Source: Henckelia pumila
Taxonomy: Eukaryota > Streptophyta > Magnoliopsida > Lamiales > Gesneriaceae
Assembly (NCBI RefSeq): GCF_033568475.1
Contig: NW_027331833.1
Location: 992,001-1,056,000, forward strand
Reading direction: 5' to 3'
DNA length: 64,000 bases
The notes under the pieces were generated by a model. That model made no database searches, had not been told where the DNA came from, and was given only the letters and a program-made list of their open reading frames with translations. Positions 850 to 44,533 of this stretch are shown piece by piece. Each line of letters begins with the position of its first letter. The first letter of the stretch is position 1. Made by a program: the position numbers and the translations under genes.

Positions 850-862
850 TTTCTCCCCCACT
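850..862 (-). other. Polypurine tract of gypsy-1
   Basis: On the minus strand this reads AGTGGGGGAGAAA, directly followed by the LTR start TGTAAGGC. This is the expected plus-strand primer position for an LTR retrotransposon. Confidence 0.85.
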
Positions 863-892
863 AAGGTATGAGTTCGTCCTCGAATTCATAAG

Positions 893-2335: not shown

Positions 2336-2407
2336 ATAAGCAATCTAGATATGCAGTCTGTATTCACATAAGAATAAAGAATAACATAAACTGAATAAGA
2401 ACTCACA

Positions 2408-5400
2408 TCAGTGGAATAGATAGGGAAATCTATGCCTCATGTCTTCTTCGACTTCCCATGTAGCCACTTCAACTCCATGCCGATTCCACTGAATCTTCAC
2501 CAATGGAATGGTCTTGTTTCGGAGTTGTTTTTCCTTCCTATCAAGTATCTGAATCGGCTGTTCAAAGTAGCTAAGAGTTTCATCTAATTCAGCTTCATCA
2601 GGTTGCAAGATATGAGATTCATCAGGTTGGTACTTTCGAAGCATCGAGACATGAAATACATCATGGATACCAGATAAAGATGTAGGAAGAGCGAGTCAAT
2701 AAGAAAGATTGCCTATCTTCTTGAGTATCTCATACGGCCCAATAAATAGTGGAGATATCTTTCCTCGCTTGCAAAATCTGACTGTGCCCCTGAACGGTGA
2801 AATTTTCAAGAACACTTTATCTCCCTGTTCAAAACTCGCATATCTGGATTGTCTATGCTGCGTTGTTCTCATTCTCTGTTGAATCAACTTTACCTTCTCA
2901 GTCATCTGTCTGATCATATCTGGTCTCAATTCAGGTACCTCTGACACATCATCCCAATACAGTGGCGATCGACACTTCTTTCCATACAGTGCTTCGAATG
3001 GAGCCATCTCAATACTAGTCTGATAACTGTTGTTATATGATAACTCCACCAATGGTAATGAATTTTGCCATGTAGTACCAAAATCGAGTACTACAGCTCT
3101 AAGCATATCCTCAAGAGTCTGAATAGTTCGTTCAGATTGTCCGTCAGTTTGAGGATGATAAGCGGTACTCAAATGTAAACGCGTACCTAACGCTTGCTGT
3201 AGGCTATGAAAAAAGTGCGAAGTAAATCTAGGATCACGATCAGATACAATCGACTTTGGCACACCATGGAGTCTTACTACTTCTCGAATATAAATTTCTG
3301 TCATATGATCATGACGATAAGTCATTCGATATGGAATAAAACACGCAGATTTCGTCAACCTGTCAATGATCACCCAAATAGCATCTCATCCTCGGGATGA
3401 CCGTGGCAATTTCGTCACAAAATCCATGGAAATGTGGTCTCATTTCCATTCAGGAACAGATAAACTCTGTAATAAGCCACTCGGTTTCTTCCTCTCAGCC
3501 TTCACCTGTTGGCAATTTAGGCATTTTGATACAAATCCAGTCACATCAGACTTCATTTGTTTCCACCAGTACTGATTTTTTAGATCATTATACATTTTTT
3601 TGCCTCCAGGATGTACACTGAATCGACTACAATGGGCTTCTTTCAAGATATTTTATCTCAAATCTGAAAGATCGGGAACAACAATTCGGTTATTCACATA
3701 CAAAATACCATCAATACTGACCTTATACTCAGATTGATGCCCTGATCGGATCATTTCAATCGACTTCTGAGCACTTAAGTCTGATTTGTGTGCTTCTTTG
3801 ATTCAAATCAACAATTCAGGCTCAGCACTGATAGCACAAATTTTCATTGGTCTTCTATTTGTCTCAAATATTAATCCAGAAATACGACAATCTTCAATCA
3901 AATTAGATACACCTATAGTAGACAAGGATAAATCATATACCTTCCTACTTAGGGCATCTGCTGCATTTGACTTCCCTGGATATTATTTGATTTCACAATC
4001 GAAGTTTTTCAATAAGTCAAGCCATCTTCTTTGTCTCATGTTCAGCTCAGATTGTGAAAACAGATACTTCAAACTCTTATGATCAGAAAATATTTCGAAA
4101 TTCTCACCGTACAGATAATGTCTCCAGATCTTTAATGCAAAGACGATATCTGCCAATTCAAGATCATGAATTGGATATATGACTTCATGTGGTTTCAGTT
4201 GTCGAGAAGCATAAGCAACAACATGTCCTTTCTGCATCAAAACACAACTCAAACCTTGGTGAGAAGCATCACAATACACAACAAAATCACCAGTACCTGA
4301 AGGGATTGTCAAGACTGGTGTTGTAGTTAATAATTTCTTCAGCTCAATAAAACTAACTTCACAAGCTTCAGACCAAACAAATGGTGCATTCTTCTGTGTA
4401 AGCTGAGTAATAGGCTTCGCAATAGACGAGAAATCTTTGATAAATCGACGGTAATAACCTGCTAAGCCCATAAAACTTCAAATTTTTGGCACAGATGTCG
4501 GTCTCTTCCAACTGATCACTGCTTCAACTTTGCTTGGATCAACTGAAATACCATCTCCTGAAATAATATGGCCAAGAAAAACAACTTTCTGTAACCAAAA
4601 TTCACATTTTGACAACTTGGCATAAAATTTCTCTTCTCGTAGAGTTCTCAATACAGTTCTGAGGTGTTCAACATGATCACACAGATTCTTAGAGTAAATC
4701 AAAATATCATCGATAAAGATAATCACAAAGTCATCTAGATACTTTTGAAATACTCTATTCATCAATCCCATAAATACTGTTGGTGCATTCGTTAGACCAA
4801 AAGGCATGACAATGAATTCGTAATGGCCATACCTGGTTCTAAATGCAGTCTTAGGGATATCCTCATCTCTTACCCTCAGTTGATGATAGTCGGATCGTAA
4901 ATCAATCTTCGAATATACTGACGAACCTTGCAATTGATCAAATAAGTCATCTATACGAGATAAAGGATATCGATTCTTTACCATTGCTTTATTCAATTGC
5001 CGGTAGTCAATACATAATCTCATTGATCCATCCTTCTTTCTAACAAACAAAACCGTAGCTCCCCAAGGAGAGACACTCGGTCTAATGTATCCTTTGGCTA
5101 AAAGATCTTCAAGTTGTTCTTTCAGTTCTTTCAATTCAATTGGTGTCATACGGTAAGGTGCTTTTGATATCGGTCGTGTACCTGACATCAATTCTATACT
5201 GAAGTCTACCTCTCGAAACGGAGGCAATCCCGGAATCTTTTCAGGGAAAACATCAGCGAACTCACTAACCATTGGAAAATCAGCCAATTTCGGGCTAGCT
5301 TTCAATACATCAACTGCGTAAATCAGAAATCTTTCTGCCCTTTTCTGCAATAAATAAGTCATAGAAAGAACAGATATCAAAGGAATTCTGGCTCGTGAAC

Positions 5401-6982
5401 CCTTACCATAGAAATTTCACTCGTCAGCCATCTCTGGTCTGAATCTCACAATCTTCTGAAAGCAATCAACTGTAGCTCTGTACTTGGTTAGTATATGGAT
5501 ACCGATTATACAATCAAAATCAGACAAACCAAGCACAACACAATCCATTTTAATCTCATGACCCTCAAACTGCAATGTACAATTTCTTACAGACTTCATT
5601 GATATAATACTTCTTCCCAAAGGTGATAAAATAGACACTACAGTAAATAAGGGTTCAACTGGAAATTCATGTAATGCAACAAATTGCTCAAAAATAAATG
5701 TGTGTGATGTACTAGTATCAACTAACACATAAGCAAGATAACCATAAATAGAGCAGTTACCTGCAATCATATCATCAGGTGCAGCTTGTGCTTGCTCTTC
5801 AGTTAGTGCAAAAACTCGAGCTTGTTGTCTTGGAGGTTGATTCACTGTCTGATCTCCTCCTCCTGCTCTACCTTGTGCTGCTGGTTGTGGTTGAAACGAA
5901 TGCACAGAGGATCCTTGTCTCCCGGCCTGTGCTACTGGTCTAGACGATCCAGTATCCTGTGCACTTCCAGAACCACGTTGTGGGCAAACTCGTGTAAAAT
6001 TTCCAATTTGATTACAAATGTGGCAACTACCAAAAACTCCTCTGCACTGTTCACTGGTATGGCGACCCCCACATTTGGTACAGTAGACATCAAATTTCTG
6101 TCCAGCTCTAGACTGTCTGGATCTACTTAAACTAGAAGATCTACCACCTGGACGTTTAAACTGTTTCCCTTTTCTTTTAAAGAAATTCTTCTTACTACTG
6201 CTGCTACCTCCTACATCAAATCGTGGTGGTGGTGGAATTTGTGGTTGCTCCTGCAGTTGTCTCACTGGTTGTGGCACAAATTGTGCTCCTCGTTGCCTCA
6301 ATAGTCCAACTTCAGCTCCATTTGCACGATTAAGAGCATCGGCAAAGTTGTTTGGTCATCCCATATTCACTAGAGTGAAAACATCTGGATTTAGCCCGTT
6401 TATAAACTGATTAGCTTGAGCTTCATCACTTGCAGCAATATGCGGAGCGAACTTCAGTAGGCTGGTGAACTTTGCAACATATTCTTCGATATTTAATTGC
6501 CCTTGTTTCAAACTTGCAAACTCTGCTCCCTTGTCCTTGCGATAAGAAACAGGAAATAATCGTTGATACAAAGCAGTTTTAAATACATACCATGTGATAA
6601 CTGTACCTCGGTTTTCAAATGCTCTTTTCGTCGCTACCCACCAATTCTTTGCAAGGCCATGTAATTGATGAATTATCAGTCTCACACGACAATCATCTGT
6701 ATAGTTGAGTGATTCAAATAACTGCTCGATATCCTCTAACCAATTCTCACAATCAACAGAGTTCTCAGTTTCTTGTAACGTTGGCGGTTTGAAGGAATAA
6801 AATCATTTCAACAGTGTTTCCATGGGAGTTGCAGTAGCACTCATTGTATCAGTAGAAGTACTACCATGTCCTAGTTCAGGTGCTGTCGCTGGTACCTGTG
6901 GCACTGTCTGTGCAACATTAGTCTGCTCTGGCTGATTCACTGCCAATGTCTGTCTAGGATTCGGTACTTGAAGGGGAGGCAT
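2408..6982 (-). pseudogene. gypsy-1 gag-pol polyprotein, one frame with ten premature stops
   Basis: A start codon at 6982-6980 opens a frame of 1525 codons that runs without frameshift to a TAA at 2408-2410. Domains in order: gag capsid (6685-6360 region); a zinc knuckle near 6090-5990, with Asn in place of the His of the second box; protease with DTS instead of the usual D[ST]G; reverse transcriptase (5380-4478) with an intact FIDD; RNase H (4471-3985); HHCC integrase zinc finger (3646-3440); integrase core (3373-2696); and a chromodomain-like tail (2644-2408). In-frame stops lie at 6805, 6358, 5419, 4480, 3985, 3805, 3655, 3442, 3388 and 2698 (first base, minus strand). Eight are TGA and two TAA. 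By comparison with the family, most TGAs sit where Arg (CGA) or Trp (TGG) is expected. The element cannot encode a working polyprotein. Confidence 0.93.
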
Positions 6983-7320
6983 ATCTGATAATCAAACATA
7001 TTAGTGCAAAATTCATCAATATATCATATACACAATTCTGTCTCAGTCCCTCCTATGATTAGCACTTTCATGCGTCTTCAAGAGATAGAGTTCTGATTCG
7101 TACTTCTAAATCAATACATGTTGTTATTCAGTTCAGGTATTCAACTAGCATGTAATTCTGAAAACTGTACAACATACTCTTACCATTAAATCACATACTC
7201 ATGCAATAATAAACTCTAAATATATTAAAGCATATACCATGCGAGCATGCAATAAGTAAATAAATCAATCAGAAGGACTCGATCTACCTCGCTCATCTAT
7301 TCTCAGTCTGAGAAACTTAA

Positions 7321-7332
7321 GCTCTCATACCA
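7321..7332 (-). other. Primer binding site of gypsy-1
   Basis: On the minus strand TGGTATGAGAGC lies two bases inside the 5' LTR. It matches the 3' end complement of initiator Met tRNA (TGGTATCAGAGC) at 11 of 12 positions. Confidence 0.85.
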
Positions 7333-7334
7333 CC

Positions 7335-8964
7335 TGTTGTGGGGACCTCGGGTTGCTAATCTCATCTTAGGGCAATTAACGATTAATTAACAATTAATCA
7401 TACCTTAAAAGAATACTCAATCCAAGAACTAAAAAAAATTTAAAAAATTCTTGCACCTCGCTCGATCGGTTAAACTCAACCGATCGAGCGAGAGTAAAAC
7501 TCCAACTCTCGGGTTTGAGCATTATTTGGCCTCGCTCGATCGGTTGAACTCAACCAATCGAATCGAGCGGGCACAAAAACTTGATTCTCGGGTTTGGAAA
7601 AATACAGGCCTCGCTCGATCGGTGGAATTCACCCGATCGAGCAAGCACTCTGCCCAGAAAATTCTGCAGATTACATTTCGCTAACAAGTCTGGAAATCCA
7701 ATTCAAACCATCTACAACTCAACTCAAATCATGGTTTAACAAGTCTGAAACATGAATATATACATACATAAAGTTTCAAGCATAAATCCATGCATTTCTT
7801 ACATCAAACGGATAGTGCAAAAAGCATTCAACTACAAGCTACACAAAGTCTTAAAAGTGTGCTTCAAGTTATAAAATTATTCTAACAAGTTTGATGTTAT
7901 TCAAACAAACATACTTCAGCTAAAACCCGAGTCCACAATTGCTAACATACTTGAGTTTCAAATCCCTGACTTGCGATGTCGTCTTATACCTTCTTATTTT
8001 CTTGGTTTTGAACGCTTCAAATCTGAAACATAACATCAAAACATTCATATCAAACTTCATTCAATTCTATCATTCCAAAATCGGTTCAAAATCATCATTA
8101 GATCTTCAATCAAAATGACTTCAAACCTTGATCACTTCTTCTTCGGTTCGAATTCAAAGTTCTTGAGTCATTGGCCTTCAATACGAATCTGAAATTGAAG
8201 AATACAGATGCTATAACATCAAAAACATCTCAAAGAATACCTCATCTCAATCATATGCTATCAAAACGGCCTCAAAGAATACACCGACGGCGTAGCGATT
8301 GAAAATCGATAACCAACAAAATATCGAAATCAATATCAGCTTCATAAATGTAATATAGAAGCAATATAGCATCATAAACCAGCATCTCACCAGCTATAAG
8401 TTTAACATATAATCTGGAAAATCATAAGAGATACAACCGCTATTCGTTCTTCGATTCAGTTTTGAACATACAAGATATAAACGTTCAAGAACATGTACAC
8501 ATGAAAAAATCCTGATTCCTTAAATATTATGATTTCGAATCTGTTAGAAACATCATAATACTTACATCAAATCGAAGCTCTCGTCGTAAGGATCGCGGTG
8601 CTATTTTTGGAATTAAAATTGGATAACCGGATCAAAAGATACAAGTATTTGAAAATCGAAAATCAAATGAAAAGAAAAAGATCTCGACCTTGCTCTGTAA
8701 ATTCTAAATCTAATATGAGTTTCACACATTGAAAGCTGACTCCTCAATTAACAAAATCGAATATGTATTAACATAATTGAAATTTAGCCCCTGAAACTTC
8801 ATAAATTGTAATTCAGTCCTCGACCCTCTTTTTAATTCAATTTCAATCCTAAATAATTTAAGAATATTAGAATTTAAATCGAAACTCTAAATATTCCCAA
8901 ATTAAATATATTCGAATTAAAATTAAATAAGTTCGGATTAAATCAAATAATCTCGGGCCTTACA
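7335..8964 (-). repeat. 5' LTR of gypsy-1 (complete, 1630 bp)
   Basis: In element orientation it starts TGTAAGGCCC and ends CCCCACAACA. It adjoins the primer binding site on one side and the hAT remnant on the other. It contains three palindromic repeats near its 3' end (7457-7645), annotated separately. Confidence 0.92.
7457..7645. repeat. Three palindromic repeats in the gypsy-1 LTR
   Basis: Copy 1 (7457-7492) is a perfect 15-bp inverted repeat, CTCGCTCGATCGGTT and its complement, around a 6-nt loop. Copies 2 (7531-7569) and 3 (7610-7645) are degenerate versions. They are spaced 74 and 79 bp apart, with similar spacers containing 'ctcgggttt'. They may be hairpins in the LTR transcript or dyad protein-binding sites; the sequence alone does not say which. 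Confidence 0.9.
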
Positions 8965-11534
8965 ATTTTAATAGCTAAATTCGAGTTTTTCATTGTCACA
9001 TGCTTCATATACTTAAAATGGGAAAATCTGTTACGATTGATAAGTTTTTTCAAAGGAAGAGAACAAATGAACTAGATACAACTACTGATATTACTTCATC
9101 AACAAGATCAAGCAACAACGATCTTTCATCTGAAATTCCTCCTAAAAGATTCAGAAATACAAAAAGTGAAGAGGTTGATCTCAATTCTTTGGATCGTGAT
9201 CCAGGATTACGTCGTCAAATTTGGGAATATCATCCTAATCAACAAAAATAGATTCTCCAAACTTATTTGAATCTAAAGGCACATCAACCTATTCTTGAAT
9301 AATATCCACAAAATAAAAATACTAAACACCCTCGAAGATTTTAGTTGGGTTGGTATGAGAAATTTCCTTGGTTGGAGTATTCTTTCGTTAAATATAAGGT
9401 ATATTGCTTTCCATTTTCTATCTTCAACAAGCCATTAGGATGCTCAAATCAAAATGCATTTACTGTTGATGTGTTTGATAATTGGAAGAAATTTAAATGG
9501 GAAAGATTGTGTTTTCTTAGGTCATATGGGAAAAGATAATGTATCTCACTCCATCGTATTTCTGAAAAGGCATGTTACGATTTGATGAACCAACCACAAC
9601 ATATATCAAGGAGATTCAAAAATTTTAATACTGAACAAATTGCAACTAACTGTCTTCAGTTAAAGGCTCACATACATGTGATATGATTGCTTGCACTTCA
9701 GGGAATTTCATTTAGAGGTCATGATGAGAAATCTAGTTCGTCAAATCGTGGTAATTTTCTTGAATTCTTGGATGTGCTAACAATGTATAGTGACGATCTT
9801 TCAAAGGCAATTGCGAGAGCTTCAAAAAATGCCAAGTATACAAGTCATGATATTCAAAAACAAATTCTTCACGTGCTTTCAATGAGAGTGAAAAATGCAA
9901 TTGGTGAACAAATTGGAGTTCTCAAGTATTGCATAATTGTTGATGAAGCCCGAGATGAGTCGAAAAGAGAGCAAATATCTATAGTATTGAGGTTCGTGGA
10001 TACTAATGGTTTCATTCAAAAACGGTTTTTTGGGCTTGTTCATGTATCTGATACTACTGCTTTGACTTTAAAGAATGCTATATACTCTGTTTTGGCTCAC
10101 TAAAATTTGGATGTTCAAAATATTCGAGGTCAAGGTTATGATGGTGCTCGTAATATGAGGGGGGATTTTAATGGATTGAAAGCTTTGATTGTAAAATATT
10201 GTAAAAGTGCTCATTATGTTCATTGTTTTGCTCATCGATTACAATTGGCTTTAGTTGCTGCATCAAAAAATGTGACACCTATTCATCAGTTTTTTGATAA
10301 ATTAACTTTTATGGTTAATATTGTTGGTTCTTCATGTAAACGCAATGATGAATTGAAGATTGCTCATGCGGATGATATTGCTCATTTGATTTCTATTAAT
10401 GAACTCGAGACGGGGCGTGGACTCAATCAGAGAGGTACTTTACAACGAGCTGTTGATACGCGTTGGAGTTCTCATTTGAGATCACTGACAGGTCTAATTA
10501 AGATTTTTAGTGCATCAAGTATGGTATTGTTTAATGTTATGGAGGATGGACTTCCTTCTCAACGAGCAGATGCTACATCTGTTTATGATGAAATGACATC
10601 TTTTGATTTTGTTTTTATCTTGCATCTTATGAAAGAGATTATGGGAATCACAGATATTCTTTGTCAGGCTTTACAAAGTAAGTCTCAGGATATAATAAAT
10701 GCAATGAAACTTGTATCATCGACCAAGAATTTACTTCAACAGATGAGAGAGAACAAGTTGGATGATTTGATTGTAAAAGTGAAGTCCTTTTGTGAAGTTC
10801 GAAATATTGATATTCCTGATTTTAGTGCTCCGTATATTGATAGACGAGGTCGATCTCGTCTTTGTCAAGACAATTTCAGCATTGAGCATCATTATCAGGT
10901 AGACGTCTTTTATGTCGTGATAGATTCACAGTTGCAAGAAATTAATGGGCGTTTTAGTGGTGATGCTATGGAGTTGCTCGTTCTGAGTACTGCCTTAAAT
11001 CCTAAAAATGCGATGGAGTATTTTAGAATTTCATATATATGTAAATTGGTTGAAAAATTTTATGCACAAGATTTTACAAGAGATGAAAAAGAGCAATTGG
11101 AGATTCAGTTGAAGCATTACGAGTATAATGCAGTCAAAGACTTTGACTATAAAAGTCTTTCAACCATTTCAGTGTTATGTCAATGGTTGGTGAAGACTAA
11201 CAAGTCAGTCACATACAACCTTGTTTTTAGAGTGATCGTACTTGTGCTTACTCTTCCGGTTTCAACTGCTACTACAGAAATATTTTGAAAATTTAAAAGA
11301 ACGTTGAATTCATTTTAGTTAGAGAATTGTAATTGAGACTTGATTATATCATTCAAAAAACTTTTGGCCTCTATTTTTTAGTAATATATGAATATTGTCT
11401 TTAGGTATTCTATTATTTTTTAATTATTGTATTCTTGTTATTGAAATTTATATCAAATATATAATAATTATTTTCTTGAGTTTGTATGTGTTGACGGCCC
11501 CCCCCCCCAGTATATAATCCTGGATCCGTCCCTG
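8965..11534 (+). mobile_element. hAT-superfamily transposon remnant, 5' end missing
   Basis: This stretch lies between the gypsy-1 LTR and a 17-bp candidate terminal repeat at 11518-11534, whose complement reads CAGGGACGGATCCAGGA, a common plant hAT-type end. It contains the broken transposase frame. The C-run at 11498-11508 close to the 3' end is also seen in such elements. No matching 5' terminal repeat is visible; it would lie left of gypsy-1, outside the window, if gypsy-1 inserted into this element. Confidence 0.7.
9000..11288 (+). pseudogene. hAT / ZMYM1-like transposase (DUF4371 type), broken by stops
   Basis: One plus-strand frame carries the signature order of plant TTF-type zinc-finger/hAT transposases. 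First comes a basic N terminus with 'DKFFQRKR'; the ATG at 9018 fits the family start better than 9000. A 'WYEKFPWLEYS' block of the TTF finger follows. DUF4371 spans about 9690-10400, including 'GQGYDGARNMRG' and 'VHCFAHRLQLAL'. Last is the start of the C-terminal dimerisation region. In-frame stops occur at about 9249, 9297, 9342, 9537, 9683 and 10101, and the frame ends at 11288. There the conserved dimerisation motif after 'STATTE' is lost. No frameshift is needed to read the domains through the stops. It cannot give a functional protein, although the segment from 10107 is open for 393 codons. Confidence 0.88.
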
Positions 11535-15286: not shown

Positions 15287-17148
15287 TGTAAGAGTGGGTG
15301 CCCAGTGAGCCAACTGTGTGGCTATGGGCTTTGTTGACTCTTTGTATAAACAATCTTTTGTTTAATAATATTTACACTTTTATGGCAATGACTTTATATT
15401 ACTTCATATTGTTATATTGTGATATACTATTGTTGTTTTGATAAAGACCTTGAATATACTATAGTGTATGTAAGATGTGGTAGAACATGGAGATGTCTAT
15501 CATGAAATACATCTTATAGTCACTGTATATTCTAAAACCGTTCCTAGTCGATTGAGCCGTCCGATAATAAGGATAAGGATCGCTCGAGTTTGAGACTAGC
15601 ATTTGCGATGCGGAGTACCACGTTTCATTGGTAGGGAACATAGAGATGTTCGAAGCATGCAAATGGATATTCATAGGATGAATAGTCGAACTACCCTATC
15701 CGGACTTTCCAAGTGGTTATCACTTATCGAGTGGATAAAGTCCGCGGTTTTGGTTGTACACCATTAGTCCTTATGACTTGAAACATCATGGAGACTCTAT
15801 ATGCTAGTACTGTGCTTTGACTCGTTTACCGACTCTGAGGGGGTCATCAGGTGTCGAGATTGGGTACAGTTACGACACATATAGGAGTCAATGCATTGTT
15901 GTCAAGGATTCACCACATACTTGCGAGTGTGGATATCCTATGCGATCTGAGGAGATATTAGTGTGACAAATCTCTGGCCAGAGTACTTGATGTGATTTAA
16001 GAAATGGTTTCTTAGTAGCACATGCGATGTCACTAATTTGATCTTCAAGATGCATTGCATAGTTATCGAATCTTGAGCGACTCTCGATATACCAATGGTT
16101 GTTGATTCGATCGGGATATATGGATGAAGGGACCATACTGTACGCTAACCAAAATCTACTGGTTCTTGTAGGCACTATCAGTGATACCTAGGGAATCATG
16201 GGGCGATGTTGCTAGGCGCTTTACCATGATTCGTTGGGCAAGTCGGAAAGTGTTGTTCCGAGTCACAAGGAGTTGTGAGCCCACGGCTAGCTGTATCCCT
16301 GAACCATTGAGGGTCACACAGTGTAATGGAGTTTTAATCCCCGTTGAGATAGTTAAATTTAAAGAGTTAAATTTAATGAACTAAGGAGTTGGACTTCTTA
16401 AATAAGAGTAAGGGAGTAGGATTTCCTAAAATGACATAGGGATGGACATTTTTGGAAACCACTGAATTCGGATTCAGGAAAATTTATTTTGACTTTAAAA
16501 TGTGCAGAAATGGTTTCTGTGCACATTGGTGAAATCAGTTCATCAATCGGAGTCACGATGAATTTTATATTAATTTCTGAACGAGCGGGCTTTGCTTGTC
16601 GGGCCCCAGCTTATGACTAATGGGCCCTAAGGTGTTAGTGGCCTGCATTATAAATAAGTTATTTCAGTACAGAAATTACACACAATAGGTCATAATTTTT
16701 GAGAGCAAAAATCGAAAACCCTAGTTCCTCTCAAATAATATTTCGGCCGCCCCCTTGCTCTGTCACAGAGAAATTCCGGTCTGTGATTTTGAATCGCAGT
16801 AAGGAATAACGAATCAGATTCGTTTATTCTCTTCGCAGAAAACTTCTGATAGATTTTCTAGTGCAATCTATCAGAGGGATTAAACCTCTGTTCGTGGACC
16901 TGATTGAAGGCGTTCATCGGTTCCAGGGAGAGACAACAAGAGCAGAATTGTTCTGTTGGTGTCCATTAATCTCGTTGCGAGATTTGAGGTAAAATTTATT
17001 TAATTGTTATTTAAATTTTACACACACACGTAATTTAATCGTTAAACGGTTGATACCCACACTATGGAATTATTCCATAACAAAATTTTTAAACTTCCGC
17101 TGCACCGGGTATCAATCGTGATTGATCTGACCGCCAGTTTTTCCAACA
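15287..17148 (+). repeat. 5' LTR of copia-1
   Basis: Starts TGTAAGAGTGGGTGCCC and ends CCAACA, 1862 bp. It is nearly identical to 22441-24302; differences seen at about 16145-16148 (CCAT against CAGT) and two near 17060-17080. Small frames inside it are repeated unchanged in the other LTR and show no sign of coding. Confidence 0.96.
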
Positions 17149-17149
17149 G

Positions 17150-17165
17150 TGGTATCAGAGCCAGG
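17150..17165 (+). other. Primer binding site of copia-1
   Basis: TGGTATCAGAGCCAGG starts two bases after the 5' LTR and matches the initiator Met tRNA 3' end exactly over the first 13 bases and beyond. Confidence 0.93.
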
Positions 17166-17278
17166 TTGCTCAGATCAAACGATTAAATTAATCAATTGTA
17201 CAAAATTTTTGAGTCTCGGTTTTTGAAACAAAATAAATATTTTTAAATAAAAAAAAAAAAAAATTTTCGGGGCAAAAC

Positions 17279-17528
17279 CCGGGCAGCGATTGGATCGCTG
17301 CCCGGTGGGGCAGCAATTGTTGCTGCCCCGGGCGGCGCACGGCGCCGCCCAAAGGGGGCGCACGGCGCCGCCCAAGGCGGCGACCGTCGCCGCCCAGGGC
17401 AGCGCTGTGCGCTGCCCAGCGCAGCGCTGGGCGCTGCGCAGGGCAGCGCCGTGCGCTGCCCTAAGGGGGCAGCCGGGCTGCCCCCGGCCCGCGCCCCGGG
17501 TGCGGGCCGGCCCGGGAGTGTCCCGGGC
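17279..17528 (+). repeat. GC-rich tandem array of hairpins with 3-nt loops in the copia-1 leader
   Basis: About eleven consecutive inverted repeats in 250 bp of almost pure G+C, in an AT-rich element. Stems and loops: 17279-17305 (12 bp, TGG), 17307-17329 (10 bp, TTG), 17330-17350 (9 bp, ACG), 17354-17373 (bulged, ACG), 17376-17394 (8 bp, CCG), 17397-17417 (9 bp, TGT), 17419-17439 (9 bp, TGG), 17441-17461 (9 bp, CGT), 17465-17485 (9 bp, CGG), 17486-17508 (7 bp, 9-nt loop) and 17510-17528 (8 bp, GTG). Nine have perfect stems with exactly three loop bases. The units vary in sequence while pairing is kept. The function is unknown. Confidence 0.95.
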
Positions 17529-17755
17529 GGCCCGCGGGAAAAATTATATTTTTATTTAAAAATTAATTTTAATATTTAAAATTTTATTTTTGGTCCGATC
17601 AAAAATTGTTTTTGATTGGTTCACGAGATTTCGGATCGAATTGTTCGAGTCCGTAAATTTTAAAATTGATTTTGGATAAATTTGAATTTTTGGAAAATTT
17701 TAATATTTTATCCGTAAATTGAATTTTGAAATCAATTATTTTGGTACAATTGAAG

Positions 17756-17903
17756 ATAAGATATGATCTTATGATATATTAAGTAAAATATGATTTTATT
17801 TGTAAAATTGGATTTTATAGATAAAATATGATTTTATTTGATATAGAGATAAAATATGATTTTATATGTGAAATGAGATTTTATATATAAAATATGATTT
17901 TAT
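17756..17903 (+). repeat. AT-rich tandem array of hairpins with 3-nt loops in the copia-1 leader
   Basis: Six short inverted repeats, each with a 3-nt centre: 17756-17772 (ATAAGAT, loop ATG), 17784-17798 (6 bp, ATG), 17803-17817 (6 bp, TGG), 17821-17837 (7 bp, ATG), 17849-17865 (7 bp, ATG) and 17887-17903 (7 bp, ATG). A weak 4-bp unit lies at 17871-17881. The first unit has G-C changes on both arms that keep the pairing. The layout mirrors the GC-rich array upstream. Confidence 0.85.
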
Positions 17904-18590
17904 CTTGTTTAAATTTGAATTGCCACAGCATGTTATCCAATAAATTAATTTTGAATTAAATGTTATTGGATAAGGATGATCGATTGCCATGACCAATTTT
18001 GTAGGTGTATGTTAGGAATTTACATTTTGTCTTTATTATTGTTGGTTTTATTAATGGGCCTGGTTTATGGCCCGATATGAATGTCATATGTAATAAAAGT
18101 GGGCTTGGTTTATAGCCCGTTCCCACCCCTAAAAATGTATCCCCTACTTGTCATTGTTATTTATTGTAAATACATTAGATTTAGTGGGAGATCAAGATTT
18201 GAAGATGGTGGGCCCAGCAGACAATGAAGACTGAAGAAATGTAAATTGGAAGCATATGTAATAGGATTGCATTTGCATACTGCATATTACCTAGGATTGG
18301 ACTAAGACCCGTGATTGGCAACCACGGGTCAATTAGAAATGGAATCGATCATCCTATATAATATGTGATATTATGATTGTATGCATGTTTAGACATAAAT
18401 TGCGTGAATCCGGCAATGCATGCAATAAATTAAATATGATGAGACAAATATTTTTATAAATAAAATCCCTCATTTTAAATATGATTTAAAATTTATATCA
18501 AGATAAATAAAGGAAATTTAAATATTGTTTAAATGTTCCTACCTTCCATCAACGGTCAATGTATGTGATGCTACCCGCGGATACGGTCCG

Positions 18591-18870
18591 GCTCATATTA
18601 TTGGGGGGGCCCGTCCGTCGGAAAGCTGTACATTGGATCGACAAATGTTGTAAGTTGGGTGGAACTCCCATGGGATCGGCTCATATTATTGGGGGATCCA
18701 CATGGCGACCGTCCATCACAACTTAATATTGATGGGTCATCTTGACATGTCACTTTAAACGGCGTCATATTATTGGGCCCTTATTGGACATGAGGTAAAT
18801 ACATGGGGGTTGCTTTGGAAGCAATTGGGCTCTACCTTTTGAGAATTATGGTTGGCTGATATTATTCGGG
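18591..18870 (+). repeat. Four spaced copies of a CATATTATTGGG motif
   Basis: GGCTCATATTATTGGG or close variants occur at about 18590-18606, 18679-18695, 18761-18776 and 18854-18870, spaced 82-93 bp. The sequence between is not obviously repeated. They lie in the copia-1 leader just before the gag remnant. Their role is unknown. Confidence 0.8.
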
Positions 18871-19231
18871 ACCATAAGTTTGTCAATTGGACTCCATGTT
18901 CTCACTAAGGAAAAAGTTTCCCGTTTTCACTAGAGGGTGGTGAAATCGCTAAAATAGTGGGAGTGAGATTCATAAAATAAAATTCGCCAATTTTATGTCT
19001 TAGTAAATTATTTAAACAATCATCGATAATTGTCTGTTTTATCTCAGTAATCCACATGTTTCTGTTCTCCAACAAAACAAACTTATTGACGCAAACAATA
19101 CAGAATGATTCCATAAGTTAAGATTGTCCTAAGTTCGGAAAAAGATTTTCTAAGTGTTAGAAAAGGCTTCTCCGAAAACAGCCCCGGCTGATGTAACTAG
19201 AGAAATGGTTGGACCATGATCTCAAGGCAAA

Positions 19232-22200
19232 ATGTTACATACAAAATTGGACAAGTCTAAACAAGTTTGCCATCACTGCAAGAAACCCGGTTATTGGAAA
19301 CGTAACTGCAAGGAATACCTCGAGCAGTTGCGAACTGCAAAGGGTATGTTATACATTGAAATAAATATTTTTAATACTACTTCTTGGGTATTGGATACCA
19401 GATGTAGATCTCATATTTGCAATGAGTTGCAAATGATGATAAGAAGTAATAGGCTAAGGATGGGTGAGACCCAATCAAGGCTCGGGAATGGTTCCAGAGT
19501 TAAATCCATAGCTATGGGAAATATTTATTTTTTGCAGAACGGTTTTAAGTTACTTTTGATAGATGTTTTATTTGTTCCAGATTTAATTAAAACATTATTT
19601 CTGTTTCTATGCTAGATAGAGATGGTTATTCTTGCAATTTTGTGAATGAGATTTGCAATATTTACAAGAATGAATGTTTAATTGGAAATGGACAACTTGA
19701 AAACGATCTATACAATTTAAAACTAAAAGACGTTCCAGTGAATTGTATTGACAAACCGGCGTCAACAAACAAAAGGAAAATCGATAGTCAAAACCCGGCA
19801 AACCTATGGCACGCTAGACTAGGTCATATTTCCTCAAGGAGGATGAACAAGCTAGTGGGAGAGGGCATGTTTGATATGTCTGATATTAACTCTCTACCTA
19901 CTTGTGAATCCTGCCTAAAAGGGAAAATGACTAAATCTCCTTTTAAGGGGAAGCCTGAGCGTAGTCAAAATCTGTTGGATTTGATCCATACAGATGTTTG
20001 TGGTCCATTTAGAGTAGGGACTCAACATGGCCACACCTACTTCATTACCTTTACTGATGATTATTCTAGGTATGGGTATTTATATTTAATGAAATATAAG
20101 TCTGAAGCATTTGAAAAGTTCAAAGAATTCAAGGCTGAAGTAGAAAACAAGCTAGGTAAAAGTATTAAAGCACTTCGATCGGATCGAGGTGGAGAATACT
20201 TGAGTACCGAGTTTTTTGGACTATCTAAAAGAGAATGGGATTCTCTCTCAGTGGACTCCTCCTATGACACCACAGCTTAATGGTGTATCGGAGCGTCGTA
20301 ATCGAACTTTGTTGGACATGGTTCGATCCATGATGAGCTTCACTGAGCTTCCACCTTCGTTTTGGGGCTATGCGCTTGAAACGGCGGTATTGTTGTTGAA
20401 TAACGTCCACACTAAAGCAGTGGACAAAACACCATACGAGTTATGGAATGGCAAAGCTCCTAAGTATTCGTACTTGAGGATTTGGGGATGTCCTGCTTAC
20501 GTGAAGCGGACAGTGGGAGATAAGTTGGATAGTCGATCCAGCTTGTGTTATTTTGTGGGGTATCCGAAGAATTCAATCGGATATTATTTCTATTATCCTG
20601 CTGAAACAAAGGTGTTTGTTTCACGGAATGCCACCTTCTTGGAGAAGGAGTTCTTATTGGATAAGAAAGGCGAGATGATGGAACTCGAAGAAGTTCGAGA
20701 AGAACCCGAAATACAAAATAACGATCCCACACCTCAGGAACCATTGCTGGACACGCCTGCACCTAGAAGATCCGAGAGGACTTCTAGACCTCCAGTTCGA
20801 TATGGTCTTCTTCTTGAAGAGGGTCAAGATGAACACGACATTGGATGTGATCCAAGAAGCTTCAAGGAAGCAATTTCTGATGCGGATTCGAATTTATGGC
20901 TTGAAGCTATGCAGTCTGAATTGGATTCGATGCATACTAACCAAGTCTGGTCTTTAGTGGATCCTCCCGATGGAATTGTTCCAATAGGGTGTAAATGGAT
21001 CTACAAAAGAAAGCTTGGACCTGATGGTAAGGTATTGACCTACAAGGCGCGATTGGTGGCGAAAGGTTATACTCAAAGGCAAGGAGTTGACTATGATGAA
21101 ACCTTTTCACCAGTTGCTATGTTCAAGTCCATAAGAATCCTTATTGCCATAGCTGCATGGTATGACTATGAGATATGGCAAATGGATGTGAAGACTGCTT
21201 TTCTTAATGGAGACATTAAGGAAGAAATCTATATGAAGCAGCCTGAGGGGTTCACATCCATGGGAAGCGAGCATAAGGTATGCAAGCTTCAGAGATCAAT
21301 TTATGGTCTAAAACAAGCATCAAGAAGTTGGAACCAGAAATTTGATGAAACAATTAAAGATTTTGGTTTCATCAAGAACCCGGAGGAACCTTGCGTGTAC
21401 AAGAAAGTAGTTAAGGATGCGGTGACATTCTTAGTACTTTATGTTGATGACATCCTACTCATTGGGAATGATGTAGGGATGTTGCAGTCAACGAAGATAT
21501 GGTTATCAGGTAGATTTTCGATGAAGGATTTGGGTGAGGCATCCTACATTCTAGGGATTCAGATCTATAGAGATAGATCTAAGAGAATGATAGGACTCAC
21601 TCAATCAACCTACATCGATACCATATTGAAATGGTTTTCAATGGATGGGTCCAAGAGAGGACATCTACCCATGTGTCATGGAGTTTCTCTATCCAAGTCT
21701 ATGTGTCCCAAGACTGATGCAGAAATAGAGAATATGACACATGTACCATATGCGTCAGCTATAGGTAGTATCATGTATGGGATGATATCTACCAGACCGG
21801 ATGTAGCATTTGCTCTGAGTGTCACGAGCAGATATCAGTCTAATCCTGGTCAGATGCATTGGAAAGCCGTGAAGGACATTCTTAAGTACTTGCGAAGGAC
21901 TAAGAATATGTTCATGGTTTATGGAGGACGAGAACTCAAACTGGAAGGCTATACCGACTCTAGCTTCCAAAGTGATGTGGATGACTCGAAGTCAACCTCT
22001 GGATTTGTGTTCATGCTCAATGGCGGTGCTGTCTCTTGGAAGATTTCCAAGCAGGACACCACAGCGGATTCCACCACTGAGGCTGAATACATTGCAGCAT
22101 CAGCTGCTGCTAAAGAGGCCGTTTGGATGAGGAATTTCGTCCAAGAGTTGGGCGTCATTCCTGAATTTGTTGGTCCAGTCCCGGTGTACTGCGACAACAC

Positions 22201-22426
22201 GGGTGCCGTTGCTCAAGCAAAGGAACCAAGGTCTCATCAAAGATCCAAACACGTACTGAGGAAATACCACATAATCCGGGAGATTGTGGAAAGAGGAGAC
22301 ATCAGTGTCGAACGAGTGGCCTCTGCAGACAATATCGCTGATCCACTTACTAAGCCTTTGCCAGGACCATTGTTTGACAAACATCGCGAAGCAATGGGTC
22401 TACGTAGTATGACTAGTTGGCTATAG
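19232..22426 (+). pseudogene. copia-1 gag end and pol (PR-IN-RT-RNaseH) with two single-base frameshifts
   Basis: 19232-19615 encodes the gag tail with a CCHC knuckle (H replaced by Y in 'CKKPGYWKRNC') and a protease whose active site reads DTRCRSH where family members have DTGCGSH. 19609-20280 encodes the integrase zinc finger and the first core Asp residues. 20216-22426 (736 aa) encodes the rest of integrase, a reverse transcriptase with intact YVDD, and RNase H, ending in a natural-looking stop. The two joints are one-base changes in homopolymers: an A run near 19590 and a T run near 20212-20217. They may be real or assembly errors. The protease missense changes argue that the copy is defective in any case. 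Confidence 0.93.
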
Positions 22427-22440: not shown

Positions 22441-24302
22441 TGTAAGAGTGGGTGCCCAGTGAGCCAACTGTGTGGCTATGGGCTTTGTTGACTCTTTGTA
22501 TAAACAATCTTTTGTTTAATAATATTTACACTTTTATGGCAATGACTTTATATTACTTCATATTGTTATATTGTGATATACTATTGTTGTTTTGATAAAG
22601 ACCTTGAATATACTATAGTGTATGTAAGATGTGGTAGAACATGGAGATGTCTATCATGAAATACATCTTATAGTCACTGTATATTCTAAAACCGTTCCTA
22701 GTCGATTGAGCCGTCCGATAATAAGGATAAGGATCGCTCGAGTTTGAGACTAGCATTTGCGATGCGGAGTACCACGTTTCATTGGTAGGGAACATAGAGA
22801 TGTTCGAAGCATGCAAATGGATATTCATAGGATGAATAGTCGAACTACCCTATCCGGACTTTCCAAGTGGTTATCACTTATCGAGTGGATAAAGTCCGCG
22901 GTTTTGGTTGTACACCATTAGTCCTTATGACTTGAAACATCATGGAGACTCTATATGCTAGTACTGTGCTTTGACTCGTTTACCGACTCTGAGGGGGTCA
23001 TCAGGTGTCGAGATTGGGTACAGTTACGACACATATAGGAGTCAATGCATTGTTGTCAAGGATTCACCACATACTTGCGAGTGTGGATATCCTATGCGAT
23101 CTGAGGAGATATTAGTGTGACAAATCTCTGGCCAGAGTACTTGATGTGATTTAAGAAATGGTTTCTTAGTAGCACATGCGATGTCACTAATTTGATCTTC
23201 AAGATGCATTGCATAGTTATCGAATCTTGAGCGACTCTCGATATACCAATGGTTGTTGATTCGATCGGGATATATGGATGAAGGGACAGTACTGTACGCT
23301 AACCAAAATCTACTGGTTCTTGTAGGCACTATCAGTGATACCTAGGGAATCATGGGGCGATGTTGCTAGGCGCTTTACCATGATTCGTTGGGCAAGTCGG
23401 AAAGTGTTGTTCCGAGTCACAAGGAGTTGTGAGCCCACGGCTAGCTGTATCCCTGAACCATTGAGGGTCACACAGTGTAATGGAGTTTTAATCCCCGTTG
23501 AGATAGTTAAATTTAAAGAGTTAAATTTAATGAACTAAGGAGTTGGACTTCTTAAATAAGAGTAAGGGAGTAGGATTTCCTAAAATGACATAGGGATGGA
23601 CATTTTTGGAAACCACTGAATTCGGATTCAGGAAAATTTATTTTGACTTTAAAATGTGCAGAAATGGTTTCTGTGCACATTGGTGAAATCAGTTCATCAA
23701 TCGGAGTCACGATGAATTTTATATTAATTTCTGAACGAGCGGGCTTTGCTTGTCGGGCCCCAGCTTATGACTAATGGGCCCTAAGGTGTTAGTGGCCTGC
23801 ATTATAAATAAGTTATTTCAGTACAGAAATTACACACAATAGGTCATAATTTTTGAGAGCAAAAATCGAAAACCCTAGTTCCTCTCAAATAATATTTCGG
23901 CCGCCCCCTTGCTCTGTCACAGAGAAATTCCGGTCTGTGATTTTGAATCGCAGTAAGGAATAACGAATCAGATTCGTTTATTCTCTTCGCAGAAAACTTC
24001 TGATAGATTTTCTAGTGCAATCTATCAGAGGGATTAAACCTCTGTTCGTGGACCTGATTGAAGGCGTTCATCGGTTCCAGGGAGAGACAACAAGAGCAGA
24101 ATTGTTCTGTTGGTGTCCATTAATCTCGTTGCGAGATTTGAGGTAAAATTTATTTAATTGTTATTTAAATTTTACACACACACGTAATTTAATCGTTAAA
24201 CGGTTGATACCCATACTATGGAATTGTTCCATAACAAAATTTTTAAACTTCCGCTGCACCGGGTATCAATCGTGATTGATCTGACCGCCAGTTTTTCCAA
24301 CA
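22441..24302 (+). repeat. 3' LTR of copia-1
   Basis: 1862 bp, about 99.8% identical to 15287-17148 by visual comparison, bounded by the polypurine tract and by the ATCGG target duplication. Confidence 0.96.
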
Positions 24303-28484: not shown

Positions 28485-31433
28485 ATGGCGGACGCCGCCG
28501 TGGAGTTCCTGTTGGAGAACCTGAAACAGCTGCTCGTGTACAACGTGGGACTGATCTCTGACGTGAAGAACCAGGTGGAGCGTCTGTACAACGATCTGGG
28601 TCTGTTCAAAGCTTTCCTCAAGGATTCCACAGAAAAGCGCAGCAAGAATGAGGTGCTGAAAGAGCTGGTGAAGCAGATCAGGAACGTGGTGTACGAGGCT
28701 GAAGATGTGATCGACGCTTTCGTCGCCGAAGCGGCGGCGCACAAGGCGCGTGGCGTCGTCAGGAAGGCTTTCCACACTCCAGGTTACGCGGAGAAGCTTC
28801 GCAAAGTGGGGGTACGGATCGAGGAGATCCGACGAAGGGTCGATGATATTTATAGAAACAAGCAATTCGGGTTCGATTCGCTTCAGACAGGGGACGGGGC
28901 CGAGGGAAGCTCGAAAGAGAAAAAGGTGAATCTTTCATGGTTTCCACTTTCACTGCTGGGATCTATCTTCTTCCTATTTTGCTATATTCCTGCTCTTGTT
29001 TGATTAGATTTGGAATGAATATGGAGCAATAGTTGGATTTGAATTGTTACATTTATTTTTCTCTTATTACTTTTGTCAGTTCATTGGCATAAGAACTAGT
29101 GAGGAATTAAGTAAATTTCTTATTGGATGTTCGTTTACTAAAAGACATAAGTCATCGGCCTTAATTGTACTGATTTGAAACCTTCTACACAGCCTCCTAT
29201 TGTTGAAGAAGACAATGTGGTGGGATTTGAGGATGAGGCAGAAACGGTCATCGCTCTTCTCACTGGGGGAGCGGATGAACTAGAAGTAAACTCAATTGTT
29301 GGCATGGCAGGACTTGGCAAGACTACATTGGCCAAAATGATTTATCGCGATCCTCGTATCGAGTACGAGTTCTACAACCGAGCATGGGTTTATGTTTCTC
29401 AAGACTATAGCAGGAAAGAAGTATTCCTCAGCATTCTTGGACATTTCACTCAGGTGACTGTTGATATGCAGAAGATGAATGATGAAAATCTGGCCAAAGA
29501 ACTTTGTAAGATTTTGGAGAAAGGAAAATATTTGGTTGTTATGGACGATGTTTGGACTCAGCAGGCTTGGAATGATCTCAAAATCGGTTTCCCTAAGAAC
29601 AACAAGAAGAGTAGGATATTGATAACTAGCCGTATAAGAAAAGTAGCGCAACATGCTAACCCAAACAGGGATCCTCACGATTTGCGTTTTCTAACAAATG
29701 AAGAGAGTTGGAAGTTACTAAAGATTAAGGCGCTGGGATCAGAGGATTGCCCTGAAGAATTGATAAAAGATGGAACCCGTATAGCCACACAATGTCAAGG
29801 ACTGCCACTCGCAATTGTGGTCATTGGAGGAATTCTGTTAGAGAAAGGTACAGATTGGTGGGAAACGGTTGGTAAAAGTGTGGATGCATATATGGCAATG
29901 GAACAGAGTAACCGCGTGGACAATTTGATTGAATTAAGTTACAATCACTTACCTTACCACTTGAAAGCATGCTTTATTTACTTTGGAATGTTTCCGGAAG
30001 ATTTTGAGATCCCCGTATGGAAACTTATTCGGTTATGGATTGCTGAAGGATTCATACAGTCAAAAGACGGAATGAGCTTGGAGGATATTGGAGAGGAGTA
30101 CTTGGACGATCTTGTCAGCAGAAATTTAGTGATGGCAGGAGTCCGGAGATCTAATGGAAAACACAAAACATGTCGTGTTCATGACATGCTTCATGAGTTT
30201 TGCAAAAGAGTAGCTGCAGAAGAAAATTTTTTTCGAGAAATAAAGCGGTTCGATCAAGGAACCTATGTATCGTCCAACCTTAACTTGCAAACTTATCGCC
30301 GTCTTTGCATTCATACTCGTGTCTTGAATTACATCTCATCGAAACCAGTTGGTACACGCGTGCGTTCTTTTGTGTGCTTCTCCAATGAAGAGATTAACTT
30401 ACCTGCTGAATATATCTCATCCATTACTGGAGCATTTAAGCTGCTCAGAGTATTGCATGCTCGGTCCATCATATTTAGTCGCTTTCCTACTGACCTAATC
30501 CAACTGGTTCATTTGAGGTTTATTGCTCTCTCTTGTAATTTCAAGATTCTTCCTGCTGCCATGTCTAGCCTTTGGAACATTCAAACTTTTGTGGTTGAAA
30601 CATCTTCACGCACTTTTGACATTAAAGCAGATCTATGGAAGATGATTCAACTAAGGCACGTGAAAACAAATGCATCCACAACTTTGCCAGGGCCTCTCTC
30701 AAAAGGTAGAAAAGGTAAAGATGAAGTTTTGATGCTTGGGAACCTACAAACACTTTCAACCATATCACCTGAAAGTTGTACAGAAGATATGTTTTTAAGG
30801 ACACCTAACCTGAAGAATTTGGGCATCCGGGGTCAATTGGCTAAGCTTCTAGATAGCAAGAGCGGAAACATTCCTTTTGATAGTTTGGGAAAATTGGATT
30901 ATCTTGAAAATTTGAAGTTGTTGAATGATGTATTTCCTCGTCCACCTTCTGAAGGAAAATTAGACAGTCTTCCTCAAACGTATAAATTCCCACCGAAGCT
31001 GAAGAAGCTAACGTTGTCAGATACACTACTCGACTGGAAAGACATGTCTACGTTGGGAATGTTGGAGAACTTGGAGATTCTAAAGTTGAAAAACAATGCG
31101 TTTAAAGGGGATTGGTGGGATTCGAAAGATGGTGGTTTCCGCGCTCTGAAAGTATTGCATATTGGAAGGACAGATCTGGTCACCTGGAGATCTGCAGCTC
31201 ATCACTTTCCAAGACTTAAACATCTTTATCTTAGACACTGCAGTAGCCTTTCAGCACTCCCAATAGCTTTCGCAGACATTTCGAGCCTCCGGCTTGTGGA
31301 CATGTATTGTACAACAAAAAATGCGGCTTTGACTGCTAAGGAGATTGAGAAAAAAATAACAGAAAAGCCCAACCAGATGCAAATCGCCAGGGGCGGAGGA
31401 TTTAAGCTCTCTATCTATCCTCCATATCAATGA
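28485..31433 (+). CDS. CC-NB-LRR disease resistance protein (RPP13/R1-like), two exons
   Basis: Exons 28485-28925 and 29193-31433 join in phase 0 (AAG|GTGAAT donor, CACAG acceptor) and encode 893 aa. Residues 1-147 form an Rx-type coiled coil with the EDVID motif at 73-77. The NB-ARC follows: P-loop GMAGLGKTT (184-192), kinase-2 LVVMDDVW (261-268), RNBS-B ILITSR (289-294), GLPL (350-353), RNBS-D around 407-434 and VHD at 476-478. The C-terminal part to 893 consists of irregular leucine-rich repeats. All NB-ARC residues expected for nucleotide binding are present, so this looks like an intact intracellular immune receptor. The recognised pathogen cannot be inferred. Reading through the intron would give a 172-aa coiled-coil protein. 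The closest named relatives by motif style are R1A/RPP13-like proteins of asterids. Confidence 0.94.
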
Positions 31434-40429: not shown

Positions 40430-40443
40430 TTTCTCCCACTTGG
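40430..40443 (-). other. Polypurine tract of copia-2
   Basis: The minus strand reads CCAAGTGGGAGAAA directly before the 3' LTR. Confidence 0.88.
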
Positions 40444-40504
40444 ATATTTGATTGAAAATCAAACACATCTCCACACATCCTTTCAATCTTGTCATTCCTG
40501 TTGC

Positions 40505-44406: not shown

Positions 44407-44518
44407 CTTGACTACAAGATTTCTGCCTTATAAAATCTTCAAAAAATCTTTTCTGATGTGGAAGATCAGTCAAAGCTGCAACCACAGAGCATACTCAAAA
44501 TTTTAAATTTTATGTCAA

Positions 44519-44531: not shown

Positions 44532-44533
44532 CT

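Follow-up and report, generated by a model that had tools for sequence, protein, structure and literature searches.

What does a GC-rich array of tandem hairpins do in the leader of a plant retrotransposon, or what process makes it? The question is raised by a 64,000-nt stretch of the Henckelia pumila genome (the window; coordinates refer to it, and the features of the element with the array are on the plus strand), in which 11 hairpin units and a GC tail occupy positions 17279–17538. A preliminary description of the window had offered an RNA signal, a protein-binding array, and a product of snap-back copying as answers.

Nine of the units are perfect stems of 8–12 bp around three loop bases, located by script. 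Hairpin 1 (CCGGGCAGCGAT-TGG-stem, 12 bp; 17279–17305) is identical in 50 of 60 arrays. It is followed by hairpin 2 (10 bp, loop TTG; 17307–17329), whose relatives show an AA/TT to GA/TC change, hairpin 3 (9 bp, loop ACG; 17330–17350), hairpin 5 (8 bp, loop CCG; 17376–17394), hairpin 6 (9 bp, loop TGT; 17397–17417), hairpin 7 (9 bp, loop TGG; 17419–17439), hairpin 8 (10 bp, loop CGT; 17440–17462), hairpin 9 (9 bp, loop CGG; 17465–17485), and the last unit, hairpin 11 (8 bp, GCCCGGGA-GTG-TCCCGGGC; 17510–17528). The loops (TGG, TTG, ACG, CCG, TGT, TGG, CGT, CGG, and GTG) agree exactly with those listed previously. Those of hairpins 6 and 8 do not end in G, and relatives of hairpin 8 mostly carry other loops, e.g., CAG, TCG, and ACG. 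The bulged unit and the unit with a 9-nt loop that had been reported are also present. The former, hairpin 4, is a relative of hairpin 3 and was read by eye at about 17354–17373. The latter, hairpin 10, was found by script at 17484–17510 as a 9-bp stem with a 9-nt loop, an alternative reading being a 10-bp stem that includes one G·U pair and has the loop CCG.

The array is far from a chance product of its composition. The 250 bp from 17279 to 17528 contain nine loop-3 hairpins with stems of at least 8 bp, whereas the mean over 1000 dinucleotide shuffles is 0.06 and the maximum 2. The folding comparison suggested in the preliminary description also comes out clearly: the minimum free energy (MFE) of 17150–17600 as RNA is −266 kcal/mol vs −181.7 ± 6.5 kcal/mol for 100 shuffles (z = −13). 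Because the palindromic units are mutually complementary, the MFE fold merges several middle units into one long helix, and a row of local hairpins is therefore not the sole possible fold. Location in the leader of the genomic RNA and folding into hairpins are two traits of a Psi-type signal that the array shows. A covariance model (R1) was functional within the window. Rfam gives no match in the window at gathering score, and assignment to an Rfam family was rejected.

The host is a Ty1-copia LTR retrotransposon. Its 5′ LTR (15287–17148) and 3′ LTR (22441–24302) are 99.785% identical over 1862 bp and a TSD is present, in line with the earlier statement that the element is very young. A TATA-like box (TATAAATA; 16649–16656) is found in 21/21 full copies, and the transcript start is assumed to lie about 30 nt downstream of it. 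The primer binding site (PBS; TGGTATCAGAGC, 17150–17161) is of the type that matches initiator tRNA-Met. The gag-pol region (19048–22426) is broken: about 0.5 kb of gag is gone and the frame is interrupted, and Pfam recognizes parts of Pol_BBD, SH3_retrovirus, and RVT_2. The assignment to Ty1-copia is made from the LTRs, TSD, PBS, and RVT_2 of the window copy together with the copia-type gag domain of a relative, L009. RT-related proteins are common in flowering plants, and the names listed include Sesamum, Hibiscus, Vitis, and Dionaea.

The array had been placed where gag should be, and this part of the preliminary description does not hold. In 11 of the 20 fully fetched copies, gag-pol is a single uninterrupted frame of 1312 codons or more. 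L009 is one of them, and its Gag has the copia gag domain and a single CCHC zinc knuckle. In L009, the gag ATG is found 1905 nt downstream of the PBS, and in the other uninterrupted copies the open frame begins at a similar position. Therefore, the array belongs to a long leader and has not replaced gag; the loss of about 0.5 kb of gag in the window copy is a separate matter. In L009, 50 ATGs separate the PBS from gag; the array in the window contains none.

Is the array a property of the family? When the array was used as a DNA query against the 884.7-Mb assembly, 40 of 1054 candidate places were scored. They resemble the array by construction of the search and are spread over eight contigs (all four large ones and four small ones). 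Thirty-six of the 40 lie on four contigs of 183–234 Mb, which would suit a plant with few chromosomes. A pattern of the hairpin unit gives 15,766 matches genome-wide vs 0 for the reversed control; the pattern is self-complementary, so that the two strands yield identical places. All 30 unit clusters listed on contig C1 up to 2.92 Mb stand behind the LTR end or PBS of the family. As this sample was chosen by the units themselves, we surveyed PBS places in addition. The PBS has 3611 and 3547 exact matches (7,158 in total), of which the first 60 listed on C1 (4 Mb) were inspected: 21 in loci already read and 39 newly fetched, 19 of the latter chosen for having no listed unit match nearby and 20 being the next in line. 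A GC-rich tract of about 60 to 460 bp follows every one of the 60, and all but two tracts (L100 and L112) contain at least one perfect hairpin of at least 7 bp. The genome search called for in the preliminary description thus finds the array in the relatives of the window copy. That the array is an assembly or sequencing artefact is practically inconceivable and is ruled out by the copies elsewhere in the genome, on eight contigs, with no match to the reversed pattern and a tract after all 60 surveyed PBSs.

No comparable array follows the PBS-like sites found elsewhere in the window (7321, 11618, 44520, and 50110), and no relative was confirmed among viral contigs. The titles and abstracts searched, in which subscription literature is thinly represented, describe neither a tandem GC hairpin array after a PBS nor retrotransposon hairpins with a loop-final G.

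Across the family, the outer units are nearly fixed and the middle units are gained and lost, the largest array having up to 16 tandem hairpins (L065, G·U pairs allowed). The last unit is perfectly paired in 48 of 60 arrays: 35 with the loop GTG, seven with ACG, TCG, or ATG, and six with a compensated double change that turns GCCCGGGA..TCCCGGGC into ACCCGGGA..TCCCGGGT (6/60). The exceptions are nine private variants with a lost or wobble pair, one shared variant that breaks pairing (L016 and L042), and L062, which has no such unit. Both versions of unit 2, ..CAA/TTG.. and ..CGA/TCG.., are paired. In a distant family around L107, whose flanking pieces are 72–90% identical, the inner stems of the array are largely different and the last unit is recognizably the same; this array folds with z = −14.5, and three relatives (75–76% identical) have the same kind of array. 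The double change, the two versions of unit 2, and the different inner stems of the distant family bear out the earlier view that pairing is maintained while sequence changes.

Such turnover is also what a mutational by-product would show. Template-switch events can perfect a palindrome. According to this alternative, template switching by reverse transcriptase or a host polymerase perfects and multiplies palindromes, and the loop bases are a quirk without selection. Quasipalindromes are described as template-switch hot spots (PMC7202029), the array middle is variable (π about 0.05 vs about 0.01 in the leader after the array), and whole units come and go. The diversity scan has to be read with care: parts of the LTR end and of the gag start have a higher π than the array middle, up to 0.15, and the outer array parts are not less variable than the flanks, so that the scan alone indicates no special constraint. 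We regard the by-product as the main rival and as unlikely overall, for reasons that come from the loops and stems.

Units of the type GGGCRGCGC..GCGCYGCCC are informative in this respect. In 70 arrays, the R/Y pair is G/C in 90 units, A/T in 51, G/T in 41, and A/C in 20; since the copies are related, these and the other counts of units and variants are not independent events. Thirteen A/C units directly precede a G/T unit with which they can pair across, giving a nested long hairpin (e.g., L020, L024, L025, L027, and L030), and such chimeric units, 13 times side by side, are in favor of template switching. Outside these nests, mismatched G/T units outnumber A/C units by 28 to 7, as expected if pairing counts in the sense RNA, where G·U pairs.

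A feature absent from the preliminary description is the identity of the last loop base. It is G on the sense strand in 482 of the 524 perfect triloop hairpins of 88 arrays and in 77 of the 95 distinct triloop types, and loop positions 1 and 2 are mixed. All 65 perfect cases of the last unit end in G (GTG 50, TCG 5, ATG 4, ACG 3, and one each of TTG, GCG, and GGG). Allele differences from the commonest loop number 21, 24, and 9 at positions 1, 2, and 3, respectively (p = 0.005 for position 3), and 10, 9, and 2 when only shared alleles are considered (p = 0.013). In the distant family of L107, 14 of 15 distinct hairpins have 3–5-nt loops with a final G. Loops without a final G exist: TGT occurs in 17 array hairpins, ATT and CAA occur in LTR hairpins, and two units of the window array belong here. 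A thermodynamic preference was rejected as the reason for the G, as it gives no advantage in the ViennaRNA energy model on the three stems tried.

The loops also speak on snap-back copying. On AGCGC stems in 70 arrays, ACG occurs 16 times vs once for CGT, and TCG 22 times vs once for CGA. The single inversions, one of each kind on the same stem class, are what the by-product would leave behind, but orientation within a stem class is otherwise nearly fixed. The loops CGG/CCG and CAG/CTG, which are complementary, each occur often, but the two members of a pair sit on different stems. Snap-back inversion, one of the mechanisms proposed earlier, is thereby rejected as the main origin of the array, and the GC-rich tract after every surveyed PBS likewise disfavors a by-product.

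The strand asymmetry bears on a reading at the DNA level as well, in which the array would be a set of dyads that bind a protein for regulation or silencing. CpG-dense palindromes near a promoter LTR (40 CpG in 17279–17545) would suit it, and there is a precedent in the palindromic CGG-CCG boxes of Sirevirus LTRs (PMC2829016), which are likewise repeated CG-rich palindromes in plant copia elements. However, the loops have G as the last base and not C as the first, G·T and A·C units are unequal in number, and the motif recurs in coding DNA and in AT-rich stems free of CpG. Sirevirus motifs also differ in that they precede the TATA box within the LTR and share one common core (PMC2829016), whereas the stems here change and the loop G is mostly fixed. 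With its place after the PBS and 630 nt past the TATA-like box, the array is not a Sirevirus-type LTR motif. A DNA-binding array, which the preliminary description had listed, is thus very improbable.

Hairpins of the same design, defined as a stem of at least 6 bp with a loop of 3–4 nt ending in G, are spread along the rest of the element, which the preliminary description had not reported either. Four lie in the LTR: TATTCAT-AGG-ATGAATA (15668–15684), TAAGAAA-TGG-TTTCTTA (15998–16014), and CAGAAA-TGG-TTTCTG (16505–16519), each in 21/21 copies, and AACGAAT-CAG-ATTCGTT (16808–16824), in 19/21 copies, four of them with the loop CAA. AATCTCG-TTG-CGAGATT (16968–16984; 21/21, loop ATT in two) is located beside a predicted splice donor. 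In the leader, ATCAAAAA-TTG-TTTTTGAT (17598–17616) comes from the hairpin count, and ATAAGAT-ATG-ATCTTAT (17756–17772), ATTTTAAAT-ATG-ATTTAAAAT (18472–18492), and TTGCTT-TGG-AAGCAA (18810–18824) are in 21/21 copies, the last also in 11 of 12 further pieces (not L073). ATAATAT-GTG-ATATTAT (18358–18374) is likewise in 21/21, with the loops GTG in 17, ATG in two, and TTG in two.

The count of triloops outside the array was begun as a control. In the window element, it gives 6 in the LTR vs 0.37 expected (5 ending in G), 15 in the leader after the array vs 0.87 (14 in G), and 8 in the coding part vs 1.07 (7 in G). Of the 55 triloops in the other five regions of the window that were counted, just 9 have a final G. 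The whole element without the array has 29 loop-3 hairpins (26 with G) vs 2.45 expected and 19 loop-4 hairpins (12 with G) vs 2.75; for loops of 5, 6, 8, and 10 nt, the numbers are not clearly above expectation (4, 2, 1, and 3 vs 2.15, 1.50, 1.50, and 2.05). In the approximate genomic RNA of L009 without the array, 38 hairpins with loops of 3–4 nt end in G, whereas the shuffle mean is 1.07 (highest 5 in 200 shuffles). Loops with another last base number 9 vs 3.61 expected in the same scan (highest 10 in 200 shuffles), and the antisense strand has 3 G-final hairpins vs 38 on the sense strand.

The motif extends into the open reading frame. L009 has eight ORF triloops with stems of at least 6 bp, all ending in G, vs 1.40 (0.50 with G, highest 3 with G) in 100 synonymous shuffles, and with stems of at least 5 bp the number is 23 (16 with G) vs 6.44 (1.85 with G). 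The eight ORF hairpins start in all three frames. Twelve 900-bp pieces around the gag start contain 31 triloop hairpins of at least 6 bp, each with a final loop G. Of the 258 triloops in the AT-rich leader downstream of the array at the 39 fetched PBS loci, 236 have this G, but only 26 of the 42 distinct triloop types do; loop-4 hairpins in the same leaders are mixed (52 G, 60 A, and 9 T). Many sense-strand stem-loops with a common loop feature, in excess of chance, are a mark of dispersed packaging signals, and the element has them. Strand specificity alone cannot separate RNA from sense single-stranded DNA.

A second copia element in the window (39955–45006, minus strand) has nine loop-3 hairpins vs about 1.3–1.6 expected. 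Its loops tend toward a final A in the sense orientation (6/9, two being duplicates in the LTRs), and another family may possibly use another loop letter.

Constraint was measured on hairpins defined in L009 alone. In stem columns of G-loop hairpins (at least 6 bp), 11 of 472 carry shared variants vs 354 of 6551 elsewhere (odds ratio 0.42, p = 0.001). Stem columns under non-G loops carry 5 in 91, and the contrast is weaker when stems of at least 5 bp are included (22/612 vs 337/6366, p = 0.04). Loop-final bases have shared variants in 3/36 vs 10/82 for the other loop bases, so that the young family shows no clearly stronger conservation of the loop G than of its neighbors. The stems persist while the loops above them diverge, in coding DNA too. 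The gag hairpin GCAGTT-loop-AACTGC keeps its stem in 17/17 copies under three loops (AGG 8, GGG 6, and GCG 3), CATGGT-loop-ACCATG does so in 17/17 copies under GTG or GGG, and one leader hairpin has three loops over a fixed stem. In an LTR hairpin, the outer pair is compensated, with TATGGAA..TTCCATA in 11 copies and CATGGAA..TTCCATG in eight; it is lost in two. The compensatory changes sought in the preliminary description are thus found, both in this T-A/C-G pair and in the last array unit (6/60).

Our conclusion is that a hairpin motif is under selection on the sense strand and that the array is a dense cluster of it. Template switching, still the main rival, explains the turnover and the compensated changes. 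It does not explain why stems stay fixed under changing loops, why the constraint is confined to hairpins whose loops end in G, or why the other window regions counted have no such excess of G, and the idea of snap-back copying as the main cause is given up for these stems as well as for the orientation of the loops.

The position of the array in the transcript may also matter, and here the preliminary description had overlooked a predicted intron. A splice donor (AG/GTAAAA, last exon base 16988; 16987–16994) is predicted in U5, 157–182 nt before the PBS, and is present in all 29 copies that fully cover the site; 12 further loci have no or partial coverage of it. An acceptor is predicted at 19033–19047, a pyrimidine-rich tract ending in CAG at 19047, and the CAG is present in 33/33 aligned rows (the row of L021 derives from a neighboring copy). 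An ATG follows within about 15 nt in 29 of the 33, the exceptions being the window copy, L010, L011, and L073. The assumed exon 1, which would begin about 30 nt downstream of the TATA-like box and end at the donor, would be 308–312 nt long and has no ATG in 21/21 copies. From these sequence features, we infer a leader intron with the donor in U5 and the acceptor just before the gag ATG, containing the PBS and, about 290 nt inside, the array. Only unspliced RNA would then carry the PBS and the array. If splicing takes place, the mRNA loses the PBS, the array, and all 50 upstream leader ATGs, and only the unspliced RNA can be reverse-transcribed.

What would read the motif? Its constant parts are a perfect stem of about 6–12 bp and a loop of 3–4 nt with G as the last base, throughout the genomic RNA, and the array would be its densest cluster. 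HIV-1 and MoMuLV zinc knuckles bind exposed guanosines, including those in hairpin loops (PMC7599994). By analogy, Gag is probably the most economical reader, having a knuckle of its own: the single CCHC knuckle would bind the exposed loop G in the manner of retroviral nucleocapsids. The genomic RNA would be marked for packaging by numerous weak sites scattered along it and by one dense multivalent site, which together would also aid particle assembly. Spliced RNA would go to translation, and unspliced RNA, the sole form with the PBS and the array, to packaging and reverse transcription. If mainly pairing and the loop G matter, units of the cluster could duplicate, vanish, or be replaced. We consider it an even bet that the array consists of selected sense-RNA hairpins read by the Gag zinc knuckle, as dispersed packaging signals plus a dense cluster. 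A packaging or dimerization signal, one of the earlier proposals, is accordingly the favored, though putative, reading. A more detailed version we hold tentatively, with somewhat less than even confidence: the whole RNA, coding region included, would bear a degenerate hairpin code with a fast-evolving array in the leader intron, and the knuckle would read the loop G, so that dispersed signals are combined with a multivalent Psi that only unspliced RNA carries. The loop letter might differ in other copia families.

The strand and constraint evidence suits any RNA-level reader, and the selected hairpins could have another job, i.e., compaction or protection of the RNA, retention of unspliced RNA, a block to ribosome scanning, or binding of a host protein. 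About 290 nt into the predicted intron, the array could slow splicing, and the leader RNA of Ty1 serves translation start, packaging, and priming together (PMC5454406). However, control of scanning or splicing needs no hairpins with a fixed loop G in U3, U5, and the ORF, and compaction alone leaves both the loop-final G and the loop length of 3–4 nt unexplained. Such a job is, in our judgment, rather unlikely.

Packaging signals read by Gag have several known counterparts, the closest in kind being retroviral Psi and dispersed packaging signals. Psi of HIV-1 and MoMuLV likewise lies in the leader after the PBS and combines hairpins and an exposed loop G with a CCHC Gag (PMC7599994); carriage by unspliced RNA only would be a further likeness if the predicted intron is right. 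Unlike Psi, the array has up to 16 tandem hairpins with exchangeable stems and mostly 3-nt loops, the predicted donor is upstream of the PBS, the motif is repeated along the remaining RNA, and Gag binding is presumed. Packaging through many dispersed stem-loops with a common recognition feature is an existing hypothesis for RNA viruses (PMC6281560), and the single-stranded RNA viruses of that model share with our element many degenerate stem-loops with a short common feature (PMC6281560). Unlike those viruses, ours is an LTR retrotransposon with a dense GC-rich cluster in addition, and recognition by its Gag is putative. The TIPIRT domain belongs to another Ty1-type element, whose structured 5′ RNA serves packaging and dimerization (PMC5454406); it is built of a pseudoknot and two hairpins that kiss through complementary 7-nt apices (PMC5454406), whereas the hairpins here are short triloops of one design. 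The grapevine elements Tvv1 and Noble are also plant copia elements with leader length variation after the PBS (PMC2576258), described there as large insertions and deletions; the words hairpin and stem-loop are absent from the main text of that paper.

If the packaging reading is true, dispersed packaging signals extend to LTR retrotransposons. The family offers a simple sequence signature that can be counted in any genome and a single-base prediction, the loop G, and the genome holds thousands of natural array variants (15,766 unit and 7,158 PBS matches) in which features can be tested. Even if packaging is wrong, a strand-specific excess of G-looped hairpins over the whole element demands explanation.

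The gag deletion of the window copy is common to L010, L011, and L021. All four copies have no gag start, lie on four different contigs, and retain the array. LTR identity is 99.6–99.8% in the window copy, L010, and L011; the value for L021 is mixed with neighboring sequence. A gag deletion shared by several separate young insertions that keep the array recalls BARE2, a gag-less relative of BARE1 that moves with the help of others and keeps its packaging signals (PMC3735527). Judged by these sequences, the four copies look like a gag-less subfamily carried by other elements, and we infer that they use the Gag of relatives in trans. BARE also resembles our element in having separate RNA pools for translation and replication (PMC3735527), but there the pools are split by two promoters and a small intron lies in gag (PMC3735527), whereas here a leader intron is predicted. 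Three more diverged copies, L070, L073, and L075, apparently have the same deletion (L073 and L075 by alignment, among the rows listed; L070 and L075 by hairpin spacing), and the deletion may thus predate the subfamily of the window copy.

The rest of the window contains another LTR element, gypsy-like, at 1–8967, with RVT_1 and RVP_2 on the minus strand and LTRs that are 95% identical. Near its 3′ repeat lies a lone hairpin (7457–7492; stem 14 bp, loop 8 nt). Two genes are also present: an NB-ARC/LRR disease-resistance-like gene at 29175–31433 and an aspartyl-protease-like gene with TAXi domains at 32584–34047 on the minus strand.
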